The notes beneath the pieces are model-generated. The model worked only from the letters and a program-made list of their open reading frames with translations. It had not been told where the DNA came from and ran no database searches. A DNA stretch of 35,306 nt from Sphaerochaetaceae bacterium (GTDB taxonomy: Bacteria > Spirochaetota > Spirochaetia > Sphaerochaetales > Sphaerochaetaceae): NCBI GenBank assembly GCA_024684115.1, contig JAIKXP010000051.1:1-35306 (forward strand), written 5' to 3'. A program made the position numbers and the translations under genes. How positions within the stretch are numbered: position 1 is the stretch's first letter; every line of letters begins with the position of its first letter. Below, piece after piece: positions 14,799-33,842 of the stretch.

Positions 14799-17066
14799 TC
14801 AGTCCCACTGCTTGATTCCTTCGAGAATCTTTTCTTCGCTTCTGCGCTTCGGATCAATTCTCTTCTGGATGGCCCTTACAATCCTGATAAGGACTTCAGC
14901 AATTATGAAGTACATGATTGCTGTAAGAACCAGGGCAAAGAAGGCTTCATATGTTCTACTTCTTACAAGGTCAGAAATCTTTGTAAGGTCGAGAACAGCA
15001 ATGTAACCTACAACTGATGTTTCCTTGATCAGTGTAACTACTTCGTTGCTGTAGATTGGCAGGAAGTGGTTAGCTGCCTGCGGAAGAAGGATCTTGAAGA
15101 AGCTCTGGCTGTCGGAATAACCGAGGGCTGTTGAAGCTTCATACTGTCCCTTACCGATTGCATTGTAACCGACCCTGAGCATATCAATCATTGAACACAT
15201 GAACATGAGTGAGAAGCCAACTATTGAAACCCAGGTTCCGCTCATTCTCGAACTGCCGAATACAATGTAGTACAGGATCATGAGAAGAAGGACCGTAGGC
15301 ATACCGTGGATGAGCCACATGAAGAAGTTGGTTATCTTATTGGCAACCTTGTTTCCGTGTCTGCAGAGCATGTATACGGCAAAGCCGAGTATTGTTCCGG
15401 CAAGGATGGAAAGAACTGTAATAAGAATTGTAACACCGGCACCGGAGACAAACAGCTTCCATCTGTTTTCCTTTATGAAGGTCTTGTAGAAACTGTTCTG
15501 AATCTTCGTAAAGAAGTTTGTACCCTGAGCCTCTTCACCGAGAATGACAAGGAATACCGGGCATGTATAGTAAACATCTGAAAGTGTACCTGTTTCGTTA
15601 CGCTCTTCGCTTACAACAATATTCATACCGATATCGAACTTACCTGTCTCAACTCCCGGGGCAATAGCCTCAAACGGAATCTCGTTGAAGATAGGAGTAT
15701 AGCCGTACTTTTCACAGAAGCGGCAGATAAACTCAACGTCAAAACCTGCAAGATTTCCGTTACTTACGAATGAGAACGGCTCATAACCGCCTTCAACGGC
15801 AATGTTCAATGTTCCATTTTCACCTGTAAACGTGAAGTCCTTGACTCCCTTTGTATCAGTTTCAGGATCAAAGTCAGCAATCCAGTACTGGTAGAGCTCT
15901 CCGTCATCTCCGAGAAGACCGTTTTCATAGCCTTCCTTGATGAACTCGTTCATTTCCTTGAGAAGTCTCTCCTGCTTGTCGTTGTTACCGATAATATTAC
16001 TTGCGCTTATGTAGCCCGGAATCTCAACGAATGTATCAAGCTCAGGATGGTTGGCCTTATGTACGTAGTAACCAACGCCTTCAACAAGGTAGGCAACAAT
16101 CTTACCGCTCTTGAGGGCCTGAATCATGTCGGTTGGCATGGTATAGTACTGGAACTCTGTATCCGGTACTCTGTCCATGATGAGCTCTTCATAGAGAACA
16201 GCTGTCTGAACACCGATTGGAAGACCGTTGAAGTCCTCAATTGTTTCAAATACGCCTGTGTTCTTCTTTTCACCTTCAAGCACAACAAGGAAGACCGGGC
16301 ATGTGTAGTAAACGTCTGAAAGTGTACCTGTCTCGTTACGCTCTTCGCTTACAACAATATTCATACCTATGTCGAACTTACCTGTCTCAACTCCCGGAGC
16401 AATAGCCTCAAACGGAATCTCATTGAAGATAGGAGTATAGCCGTACTTTTCACAGAAGCGGCAGATAAACTCAACGTCAAAACCTGCAAGATTTCCGTTA
16501 CTTACGAATGAGAACGGCTCATAACCGCCTTCAACGGCAATGTTCAATGTTCCATTCTCGCCTGTAAATGTGAAGTCCTTGACTCCCTTTGTATCAGTTT
16601 CAGGATCAAAGTCAGCAATCCAGTACTGGTAGAGCTCTCCGTCATCTCCGAGAAGACCGTTTTCATAGCCTTCCCTGATGAACTCGTTCATTTCCTTGAG
16701 AAGTCTTTCCTGTCTGTCGTTGTTACCGATAATATTACTTGCACTTATGTAGCCCGGAATCTCAACAAATGTATCAAGCTCCGGATGGTTGGCCTTATGA
16801 ACGTAGTAACCTACTCCTTCAACAAGGTAGGCTGCAATCTTACCGCTCTTGAGGGCCTGAATCATATCGGTTGGCATGGTATAGTACTGGAATTCTGTAT
16901 CCGGTACCTTATCCATCATGAGCTCTTCATAGAGAACAGCTGTCTGAACACCGATCGGAAGACCGTTGAAATCTTCAAGCTTCTTGAATGAAGATGTGTC
17001 AACTGCTGCAAAGACACTGCCGCAGAGAATAACGGCAATTAAAAGAATAAGTACTGTTTTTCTCAT
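14799..17066 (-). CDS. Amino-acid ABC importer: signal peptide, two tandem substrate-binding domains and permease in one chain
   Basis: The 755-residue protein combines the binding protein and permease of a polar amino-acid importer (GlnP/HisM type). Residues 1-20 are a signal peptide ending VFA. Two nearly identical extracytoplasmic units follow at about 30-263 and 276-509. Each starts with a lobe-2-like piece (EDFNGLPIGVQTAVLYEE) and ends with a lobe-1-like piece (GTLNIAVEGGYEPFSF), a permuted order compared with classic binding proteins. From about 520 there is a BPD_transp_1 permease with the EAA loop EASTALGYSDSQSFFKILLP. The start is at 17066: the ATG overlaps the upstream stop (ATGA) and has GGAGG 7 nt before it. 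An ATG at 17084 lies inside the ATPase gene ahead of that site. The ligand is unknown; polar amino acids are likely. Confidence 0.9.
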   Translation of the reverse strand: MRKTVLILLIAVILCGSVFAAVDTSSFKKLEDFNGLPIGVQTAVLYEELMMDKVPDTEFQYYTMPTDMIQALKSGKIAAYLVEGVGYYVHKANHPELDTFVEIPGYISASNIIGNNDRQERLLKEMNEFIREGYENGLLGDDGELYQYWIADFDPETDTKGVKDFTFTGENGTLNIAVEGGYEPFSFVSNGNLAGFDVEFICRFCEKYGYTPIFNEIPFEAIAPGVETGKFDIGMNIVVSEERNETGTLSDVYYTCPVFLVVLEGEKKNTGVFETIEDFNGLPIGVQTAVLYEELIMDRVPDTEFQYYTMPTDMIQALKSGKIVAYLVEGVGYYVHKANHPELDTFVEIPGYISASNIIGNNDKQERLLKEMNEFIKEGYENGLLGDDGELYQYWIADFDPETDTKGVKDFTFTGENGTLNIAVEGGYEPFSFVSNGNLAGFDVEFICRFCEKYGYTPIFNEIPFEAIAPGVETGKFDIGMNIVVSEERNETGTLSDVYYTCPVFLVILGEEAQGTNFFTKIQNSFYKTFIKENRWKLFVSGAGVTILITVLSILAGTILGFAVYMLCRHGNKVANKITNFFMWLIHGMPTVLLLMILYYIVFGSSRMSGTWVSIVGFSLMFMCSMIDMLRVGYNAIGKGQYEASTALGYSDSQSFFKILLPQAANHFLPIYSNEVVTLIKETSVVGYIAVLDLTKISDLVRSRTYEAFFALVLTAIMYFIIAEVLIRIVRAIQKRIDPKRRSEEKILEGIKQWD
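15542..16983 (-). repeat. In-frame tandem duplication, period 738 bp, inside the importer gene
   Basis: Segments of about 705 bp at 15542-16245 and 16280-16983 are almost identical and lie exactly 738 bp (246 codons) apart. I count 7 amino-acid differences over about 234 residues, all conservative, and a long C-terminal stretch without any. The scattered silent differences show the two copies are real and not an assembly echo. Confidence 0.93.
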
Positions 17067-18181
17067 GCCATTTCCTCCGACCACTTGAAGCTCATGTCTA
17101 TCTGATAAAGACAGCCGTCAGGGTCCTTATCAAGTTTCTTTTCTGAAAGTGTTGTCGTGGGTTCTTCAAGCATGAGCAGGAAGAGTTTACTTTCTGAAGT
17201 CTTAGGATCGAATCTTTCGTCACCCTTGTATCTGATGGAAACTGAAAGAACGTCCTGCTTTTCTGAGTACTCAATCTTGACGAGGATGAACGGATTGTCT
17301 GAGTAAGCTGCAATATTATTAATACAGATTTCCTCAATTGCAAGGCTGAGCTTACTGAGTCTTTCGGACTCAATGAGCAGCTTTTCACCGTAAGCCATAA
17401 GTTCTTCGTTCATGACTTCAAAGTCAAACTCAGTACTGTCAATCTTGTAGCTGAGAGTTGTAAGTCTCTGAACAAAGCGTCTTGTGAGCTCTCTTTTCGG
17501 GTTCTCGAAGATCTGTTTCGGAGTACCCTCTTCGTAGATTTCTCCTTCTGCAATAAACAGAACACGGTTAGAAATCTTTCTTGCGAAATCCATTTCGTGA
17601 GTAACAATAACCATTGTTCTTCCTGTCTTGGCAAGAAGCTTGATAACTGACTGTACTTCACCGATCATGGACGGGTCCAGAGCACTGGTCGGCTCGTCGA
17701 AGAGAATGACATCAGGATCCATTGCAAGGGTCCTGGCTATGGCAATTCTCTGCTGCTGACCACCTGACAGTTCGTCAGGGTAAGAGAAAACCTTGGTAAC
17801 AAGACCAACCTGAGTCAACAGATACATAGCCTTCTCATAGGCTTCCTGACGGCTTCTGCCGAGCAGTGTGATCTGAGGATTCATAATGTTCTCGATTACC
17901 GTGAGGTGTCCAAAGAGATTGAAGGACTGGAAAACCATTCCCATCTTCTTTCTCACTTCGTTGAGGTCACAACCTCTTTCTGTGATGTCCTGGCCATCAA
18001 CTATAATCTGACCGCTTGTAGGCTCGGTCAACATGTTGATACATCTGAGCAATGTGGATTTGCCAGTGCCAGAAGGTCCGATGATGCTGATAACATCCCC
18101 GCTGTTGATGGTAACATTAATATCCTTAAGTGGAATTGTGTTATCATCAAACTCTTTTCGCAAATGACGAATTTCTATCAT
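17063..18181 (-). CDS. Amino-acid ABC importer ATPase with GHKL-like C-terminal extension
   Basis: Residues 1-245 are a typical polar amino-acid importer ATPase (GlnQ/HisP type): Walker A GPSGTGKST at 35-43, Q-loop Q85, signature LSGGQQQR at 138-145, Walker B ILFDEP at 159-164 and H-loop H195. The protein is 372 residues, about 125 longer than the family norm. The extra part (about 250-372) has SLAIEEICINNIAAY at 279-293, like the N-box of RsbW-type HATPase_c_2 domains, then beta strands and GDERFDP resembling their second motif. A GLGL-type G2 box is missing, so ATP binding by this part is doubtful. The gene overlaps the permease gene by 4 nt and is preceded by a structured leader. Confidence 0.9.
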   Translation of the reverse strand: MIEIRHLRKEFDDNTIPLKDINVTINSGDVISIIGPSGTGKSTLLRCINMLTEPTSGQIIVDGQDITERGCDLNEVRKKMGMVFQSFNLFGHLTVIENIMNPQITLLGRSRQEAYEKAMYLLTQVGLVTKVFSYPDELSGGQQQRIAIARTLAMDPDVILFDEPTSALDPSMIGEVQSVIKLLAKTGRTMVIVTHEMDFARKISNRVLFIAEGEIYEEGTPKQIFENPKRELTRRFVQRLTTLSYKIDSTEFDFEVMNEELMAYGEKLLIESERLSKLSLAIEEICINNIAAYSDNPFILVKIEYSEKQDVLSVSIRYKGDERFDPKTSESKLFLLMLEEPTTTLSEKKLDKDPDGCLYQIDMSFKWSEEMA

Positions 18182-18308
18182 TCCGCATAACCCTAGGTAA
18201 AATGCAGTTCGTTCTGAAGTCGTCTTACTTGACTAGGGTGGCACCACATGCATTGTTTGCCTTCAGAACTGTGGGGATTGTTGGATATGGCTGGTCCCCG
18301 CACTTTAC
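18182..18308 (-). promoter_or_regulatory. Structured 5' leader, candidate riboswitch of unrecognised class
   Basis: On the minus strand the predicted transcript begins with GTAAAGTGC (18308-18300), which pairs with GCATTTTAC (18205-18197) to close the element. Inside are a hairpin GGGGA/TCCCC (18299-18295 with 18277-18273) and a 9-bp stem GTTCTGAAG/CTTCAGAAC (18269-18261 with 18219-18211). The loop of that stem contains ACCCTAG (18239-18233), exactly complementary to CTAGGGT (18196-18190), which includes the AGGG Shine-Dalgarno 9 nt before the ATG. A pseudoknot would therefore block translation initiation. It does not match lysine, glycine, SAM, TPP, purine, cobalamin or glutamine riboswitch signatures that I know. 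Confidence 0.6.
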
Positions 18309-18314
18309 AGGGCT

Positions 18315-18343
18315 ACCATAATGGCAAAAGGGTTCAGGGTCAA
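18315..18343 (-). promoter_or_regulatory. Promoter of the amino-acid importer operon
   Basis: On the minus strand TTGACC (18343-18338) and TATGGT (18320-18315) are separated by exactly 17 nt. The expected start, about 7 nt downstream, coincides with the first base of the leader's closing stem at 18308. Confidence 0.7.
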
Positions 18344-32077: not shown

Positions 32078-33571
32078 TTATTTTGAAAACTTCTTTTTCA
32101 GAACAAAGATTGTTGCAATCATAAGTACAATTCCGATTGGAAGTGTAATAAGCCAGTTTGGAATGAATCCTGCAATAATGTAGGTAACTGCTGAAACAGC
32201 TGCAACTGTAAGTGCATATGGAAGCTGTGTTGCAACGTGGACAACGTGGTCACACTGTGCACCGGCTGAAGCCATGATAGTTGTATCTGAAATAGGTGAA
32301 CAGTGGTCACCGCAGACAGCACCTGCCATACAGGCTGAAACACAGACAAGTCCGAGCGGAGTATCTGCCGGGAAGACTGAGATTGTAATAGGAATAAGAA
32401 TTCCGAATGTGCCCCAGCTTGTTCCTGTTGAGAATGAAAGACCTACGGCAATTACGAAGACAATAGCCGGAAGGAAGCTCTGAAGTCCGCCTGCTGATGA
32501 AGCAACAAGACCTGCTACAAACTCTTTGGCTCCGAGTGAATCAGTCATTGCCTTGAGGGTCCATGCGAAGATAAGGATAAGGATGGCCGGAACCATAGCC
32601 TTGAAACCTTCCGGAAGACCCTGCATGGCCTGCTTGTATGAAAGTCTCTTTCTGATGAGGTAGTAAATAATTGTAATTACGAGAGTTACTGTACTACCAA
32701 GCATGAGGCCGACTGAAGCATCTGAGTTGGAGAAAGCTGTTACGAAAGATTCGCCTGAGAAGAATCCGCCAGAGTAAATCATACCGATTACACAGCTTAT
32801 GATGAGAACTACGATAGGAAGAACAAGATCAAGAACAATAGCTCCGTTTGGCTTTGTATCTATGTCTCCGTATACAGCCTTAAGTCCTGAGAAGACATCT
32901 CCGGTCTTGTCTGTAATGTCCTCATACTTCTTCATTGGACCGTATTCGAACTTTGTAATTGCAAGTGTAAGCATCATTACAATAGTAAGAATTGCGTAGA
33001 AGTTGTAAGGAATGGCTCTGATGAAGAGTCCGAATCCACCCTCAGGTACAAAGCCTGAAACTGCAGCTGCCCATGAAGAAACAGGAGCAATGATACAGAT
33101 TGGAGCTGCTGTTGAGTCAATAAGATAGGCAAGCTTTGCTCTTGAGATTTTACCCTTGTCTGTAACCGGTCTCATGACTGAACCGACTGTAAGACAGTTG
33201 AAGTAGTCGTCAATGAAGATAAGTACGCCGAGTGTGATTGTAGCAAGCTGGGCACCGATCTTTGTCTTGATCTTTTTTGAAGCCCACTCGCCGAAAGCTG
33301 CTGAGCCGCCGGCCTTGTTCATAAGGCTGACAAGAGCACCGAGCATGACGAGGAAGACAAGAATACCTACGTTGTAGGAATCTGCAATTGAGCTTACAAA
33401 GCCATCCTCAAGCATGTGAACGAGTGTACCCTCAAAACTGAAACCTGAATAAAGAAGAGCTCCAGAGAGAATACCGATAAAAAGTGATGAGTAGACTTCT
33501 TTTGTAATAAGGGCAAGTCCGATTGCAATTATTGCAGGAAGAAGTGACCATGCGGTCTGGAATACGTTCAT
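32078..33571 (-). CDS. NhaC-family Na+-coupled carrier, probable lysine transporter
   Basis: The 497-residue protein has about twelve membrane segments and NhaC family features: LLPAIIAIGLALITKEVYSSLFIGILSGALL at the start, FIDDYFNCLTVGSVMRPVTDK near 118, and SFSTGTSWGTFGILIPI and CGDHCSPISDTTIMASAGAQCDH near 380-440. Family annotation would be Na+/H+ antiporter, but the transcript leader is a lysine riboswitch. Carriers of this family under lysine riboswitches are taken to be lysine transporters (LysW type), so lysine uptake is the better call. AAGGAG lies 7 nt before the ATG and is part of a regulatory hairpin. It is monocistronic with a terminator of its own. Confidence 0.88.
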   Translation of the reverse strand: MNVFQTAWSLLPAIIAIGLALITKEVYSSLFIGILSGALLYSGFSFEGTLVHMLEDGFVSSIADSYNVGILVFLVMLGALVSLMNKAGGSAAFGEWASKKIKTKIGAQLATITLGVLIFIDDYFNCLTVGSVMRPVTDKGKISRAKLAYLIDSTAAPICIIAPVSSWAAAVSGFVPEGGFGLFIRAIPYNFYAILTIVMMLTLAITKFEYGPMKKYEDITDKTGDVFSGLKAVYGDIDTKPNGAIVLDLVLPIVVLIISCVIGMIYSGGFFSGESFVTAFSNSDASVGLMLGSTVTLVITIIYYLIRKRLSYKQAMQGLPEGFKAMVPAILILIFAWTLKAMTDSLGAKEFVAGLVASSAGGLQSFLPAIVFVIAVGLSFSTGTSWGTFGILIPITISVFPADTPLGLVCVSACMAGAVCGDHCSPISDTTIMASAGAQCDHVVHVATQLPYALTVAAVSAVTYIIAGFIPNWLITLPIGIVLMIATIFVLKKKFSK

Positions 33572-33641: not shown

Positions 33642-33658
33642 GTATCCTTAACAGGAAT

Positions 33659-33821
33659 ATGACAGCTCTCCGGTCATTTAACCGACAGTATGCAGGATAT
33701 TTTCCAGCATCCCGGAATCTGAAAATACAGGTTTCTCTTCAGACCCTCGGCATCTGCTCCTTTCGCTGTATGCAATTACCTGAAACATAGCAGCTACTAT
33801 TAACAGACGCGCCTCTATCAT
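33659..33821 (-). promoter_or_regulatory. Lysine riboswitch (L box)
   Basis: On the minus strand the closing stem ATGATAG (33821-33815) pairs with CTGTCAT (33665-33659). Conserved core pieces appear in order: GATAGAGGCGCG, AATAGTAG, AAAGGAGCAGATGCCGAGG and CCGGAGAGCTGTC. These correspond to the L-box consensus (AGAGGxGCG, AGTA, GGxGxxxxxGCCGA, GGAGxGCTxTC). Known lysine riboswitches turn genes off when lysine is plentiful. Confidence 0.88.
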
Positions 33822-33842
33822 GATCTATTCAGTCGTGGACAA

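Follow-up and report, generated by a model that had tools for sequence, protein, structure and literature searches.

A conserved structured leader RNA before an amino-acid-type ABC importer of Sphaerochaetaceae: a probable new gene-control element of narrow distribution and a possible riboswitch

Introduction

Translational riboswitches such as preQ1-II, SAM-II and similar elements are compact RNAs with conserved loops, in which one strand of a pseudoknot lies over the Shine-Dalgarno sequence. The leader described here precedes an importer operon on the minus strand of the analysed stretch of DNA (the window, 35,306 nucleotides). It resembles preQ1-II and SAM-II in its putative pseudoknot strand over the Shine-Dalgarno sequence, its compact size and its conserved loops, whereas the order of its three-way junction and its closing helix P1 are different and neither sequence nor covariance-model comparison gave a match. 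In their logic the Shine-Dalgarno-pseudoknot riboswitches are closest to it, and it belongs to no family among those tested.

The genome does use amino-acid riboswitches, since a genuine member of the lysine riboswitch family (RF00168) is found in the window at 33655-33825 on the minus strand (83 bits), upstream of a Na+/H+ antiporter-family gene (32078-33571) that is probably a lysine transporter. The leader under study does not match RF00168; it folds differently and is the smaller of the two. Attenuators that act through a leader peptide in amino-acid operons are also comparable, in that Lys/Arg-rich leader ORFs seem to serve the orthologous gene in sister clades, but the conserved entity in the present leader is RNA structure and not a reading frame. 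Our search of the literature on Sphaerochaeta riboswitches found no paper.

Results and discussion

The operon behind the leader contains the following genes:

17063-18181, minus strand: GlnQ/TcyN-like ABC ATPase with a C-terminal HATPase_c_2-like domain (372 aa, ATG at 18181)
14799-17084, minus strand: fused family 3 substrate-binding/permease protein, the next gene after the ATPase, with a tandem-duplicated and permuted binding unit

The best names obtained for the binding protein were of the cystine, lysine/arginine/ornithine and glutamine types, all under curated cut-offs. In the family 3 binding protein (14799-17084) the half for the second lobe precedes that for the first, which makes the unit circularly permuted; its AlphaFold model was of low confidence (pLDDT 65.8). 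The permuted unit looks tandem-duplicated in those leader-carrying operons that are readable far enough, and single in orthologues without the leader (L056-L073). A Treponema binding protein has been discussed in connection with circular permutation (PMC4990184).

Upstream of the ATPase gene, the leader and its promoter comprise the following elements:

18315-18343, minus strand: promoter TTGACC-17-TATGGT
18191-18308, minus strand: structured leader RNA of about 120 bases, from P1 to the presumed Shine-Dalgarno sequence (covariance-model matches and structure counts)
18300-18308, minus strand: P1 5' strand GTAAAGTGC, eight conserved pairs and one local pair, 100% paired in 14 leaders
18197-18205, minus strand: P1 3' strand GCATTTTAC (structure counts, 14 leaders)
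18295-18299, minus strand: P2 5' strand GGGGA, G-C replaced by A-U in two leaders
18278-18294, minus strand: P2 loop
18273-18277, minus strand: P2 3' strand TCCCC (structure counts, 14 leaders)
18261-18269, minus strand: P3 5' strand GTTCTGAAG
18211-18219, minus strand: P3 3' strand CTTCAGAAC (structure counts, 14 leaders)
18233-18238, minus strand: putative pseudoknot strand CCCTAG
18191-18196, minus strand: CTAGGG, putative pseudoknot partner and presumed Shine-Dalgarno sequence, in every leader

Much of this architecture had been proposed by a first-pass annotation from the single sequence. The minus-strand promoter that it described (TTGACC from 18343, a 17-nt spacer, TATGGT ending at 18315) is present and conserved in the homologous leaders, although chance alone would give about one such match in the region. 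Its spacer contains a conserved CCC-TT signature that occurred, among seven genomes, only at these leaders and is possibly an operator site. Both internal hairpins were found as described: GGGGA/TCCCC (18299-18295/18277-18273) corresponds to P2, kept in all 14 distinct leaders, and the exact 9-bp stem GTTCTGAAG/CTTCAGAAC (18269-18261/18219-18211) to P3, kept in 14 of 14 with covariation. The closing stem (18308-18300/18205-18197) does have its nine base pairs here, but the innermost pair, C18300-G18205, is not conserved, so that P1 is in general a helix of 8 bp. The proposed second register, CAGTTC/GAACTG, which could have allowed the fold to switch, also exists in the window and was rejected, because its pairing is not conserved across the leaders: 63% of its cells can pair, and none of them has changed on both sides. 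The folding energy of the leader as a single sequence was ordinary (z -0.85), and the case for it therefore rests on comparison; P1 and P3 were predicted at high probability in 13 of the 14 leaders.

The leader RNA is new to Rfam. Among 4227 families, no meaningful match was obtained for the window's leader at E values up to 10, nor for the leaders of nine other loci at E values up to 1, in agreement with the earlier statement that the element does not fit the riboswitch consensus patterns considered. Leaders from other genera gave no Rfam family either.

Ten leaders retrieved by a DNA search of relatives were used to build a covariance model, which matched 15 of the 139 genomes of the family. 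One match (L026 in G125, E 0.022) lies inside a coding sequence and was judged to be due to chance. The leader is found in 14 genomes from 3 of the 22 genera, always with one gene, and in 15 copies, 14 of them distinct in sequence, one genome (G002) having two copies. Every genuine leader precedes the same ATPase gene, while the sequence upstream of the leader is varied. Homologues outside the family were not found in samples of 395 genomes of the class and 296 of the phylum, and the leaders of orthologues in other genera gave no match to the covariance model, even with filters off. A pattern search of genome contigs returned 14 spirochaete records and two unrelated matches (L029 and L033), which have neither P3 nor the pseudoknot. 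The named records with the element are Spirochaetales or Sphaerochaetaceae MAGs, most of them labelled rumen. The two copies in G002, each with its ATPase gene, lie on contigs C19 and C22 (L004 and L011); the C22 leader is closely like L014, which comes from a genome of a different genus, and this likeness across genera suggests horizontal transfer.

Comparison of the 14 distinct leaders revealed standard pairs in 99.7% of the pair cells of P1, P2 and P3, against 39-50% when the partners were slid. Double-sided changes (46 cells across the three helices) affected eight of the nine pairs of P3 and one pair each of P1 and P2. For a tree-based null, the observed number of changes was replayed on the leader tree in 200 replicates, a simple custom construction that is distinct from R-scape. 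The variable cells of P3 were 99% paired, above all 200 replicates (null mean 58%, maximum 75%), those of P1 were 100% paired (null mean 78%, 0 of 200 replicates as high), and P2 exceeded all but nine replicates; at the level of single pairs, only one P3 pair lay beyond every null pair. Covariation of the helices, as expected of a riboswitch, was thus strong for P3 and modest for P1 and P2.

The letters of P3 have changed, with a between-genus identity of 34.5% against 47% at the four-fold degenerate codon sites of the ATPase gene. The corresponding identities were 96% for P1, 95% for P2, 83% for the P2 loop, 89% for the P3 loop, and 97 and 100% for the two pseudoknot strands. A stem that keeps its pairing while its letters change, beside near-constant loops, is typical of a structured regulatory RNA, and the conserved structure belongs, as is usual for riboswitches, to the 5' leader of a gene for metabolism or transport. 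The structured leader before an amino-acid importer that the first-pass annotation proposed was borne out by these 14 covarying homologues in front of the same gene. Judged from the aligned sequences, the leader is under structural selection and is almost certainly a conserved structured RNA.

The proposed pairing of ACCCTAG with CTAGGGT (18239-18233/18196-18190) is present, and its core, CCCTAG/CTAGGG, is complementary in all 14 leaders. Covariation had been named as the support to look for at both the stem and the pseudoknot; it was found in the stems, whereas the pseudoknot strands are nearly invariant and, because they hardly vary, were indistinguishable from the tree null. The few deviations are an A-U to G-U change in L024 and, in L023 and L024, the loss of one C between P1 and CTAGGG, where the C that is left can serve only one of the two, P1 or the pseudoknot. 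L025 retains CCCTAG although almost all of the remaining P3 loop is replaced; since the conserved P3-loop sequence is mostly absent there, that part cannot be essential as a binding site. Within CTAGGG, nine bases upstream of the ATG, lies AGGG, the best candidate for a Shine-Dalgarno sequence. A pseudoknot that hides the Shine-Dalgarno sequence is supported by this arrangement, rather than proved.

No terminator was found in the leader, which makes translational control more likely. The leader is probably a gene-control element, new and narrowly distributed, and possibly a riboswitch; a translational OFF riboswitch belonging to an undescribed class is the best reading, and one that we consider reasonably likely. 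Transcription would start at or beside the first base of P1, and the RNA would form a three-way junction of P1, P2 and P3. In the stabilised compact form, the CCCTAG of the P3 loop would pair with CTAGGG just 3' of P1, which would hide the Shine-Dalgarno sequence and reduce translation of the importer; without such stabilisation the Shine-Dalgarno sequence would be free. A small-molecule ligand is our best guess, and the pseudoknot, the OFF direction and the ligand are all inferred; the ligand is perhaps the imported substrate, and possibly a basic amino acid.

Alternatively, a short leader ORF could be translated and the position of the ribosome could open or close the Shine-Dalgarno sequence; this is the main competing explanation, and we regard it as unlikely. 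The candidate ORFs are a GTG/ATG frame from 18303 and ATGCATGTGGTG...CCCTAG within the P3 loop, the latter a small ORF of 7 codons (ATGCATGTGGTGnnnCCCTAG). The long frame, whose first codon is GTG or, in one species, ATG, is free of early stops in 13 of the 14 leaders, but its changes are without codon-position bias (21:18:16), and the conserved coding frame with codon-type substitutions that a leader peptide should display was not found in it. The short frame, MHVVxP-stop, has its stop codon in the putative pseudoknot strand and is complete in 11 of the 14 leaders, but L025 does not have it, L027 has it with a frameshift and L024 lacks its stop, and so it is not common to all members; its 7 codons are too few for the substitution test. 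Moreover, the changes in P3 are compensatory for pairing and not synonymous. Both ORFs were therefore rejected as conserved entities, the long one for want of a coding signal and the short one because it is broken in three leaders. A conserved peptide appears unlikely, though somewhat less so for the short ORF.

Leader-peptide control draws further plausibility from sister clades, where Lys/Arg-codon-rich uORFs (e.g., MIRTKRKKR...) precede the orthologous gene. L061, L072 and L073 share a 38-codon ORF that starts MIR(T/A)KRKKR and whose stop (TGA) overlaps the ATG of the ATPase gene; the changes in its first 20 codons are distributed 3:2:9 by codon position among the three sequences, and it is probably a leader peptide. 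L056, L058 and L065 have in common a small ORF that ends KKVDRGK(L/C)GYN-stop, with changes of 0:1:4 by codon position, again in three sequences. These basic ORFs are hints of control by Lys/Arg supply, in which case the cargo would be a basic amino acid. A stretch of L065, AAAGTGCGGGTACAACTAG, is similar to the beginning of the leader found in the window; none of 200 shuffles did as well, but this was one of many comparisons.

A regulatory protein, perhaps the importer's own ATPase acting through its HATPase-like domain, might instead bind the junction and repress translation. Such autogenous control would fit the single gene context and the narrow distribution, and the ATPase does have an extra C-terminal domain (17066-17449, minus strand) with a weak match to PF13581 (HATPase_c_2; E 1.7e-4, below the Pfam cut-off). 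Against this, PF13581-like domains were matched in 74 of the 139 family genomes and the leader in 14, many genomes thus having the domain and no leader, and the domain search found no known RNA-binding domain; we consider this explanation improbable. Structure without sensing, in which the leader would serve only basal translation or stability or act as a thermosensor, agrees with a fold predicted to be stable on its own and with the lack of a known ligand, but the unpaired loops are conserved far above four-fold codon sites, which simple hairpins and thermosensors rarely show; we consider this reading improbable as well.

Conclusions

The translational OFF riboswitch favoured here can be extended, as a doubtful proposition, to a new class whose ligand would be the substrate of the importer itself, possibly a basic amino acid such as arginine, and which would have arisen next to, or taken the place of, the leader-peptide control that acts on the same gene in related spirochaetes. 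The leader is a comparatively well supported orphan regulatory RNA and small enough for direct testing. The orthologous gene seems to have different types of leader according to genus, a leader peptide in some and a structured RNA here, which provides a natural case for studying the replacement of one control system by another. Should amino-acid sensing be true, the leader would be an addition to the short list of amino-acid riboswitches.
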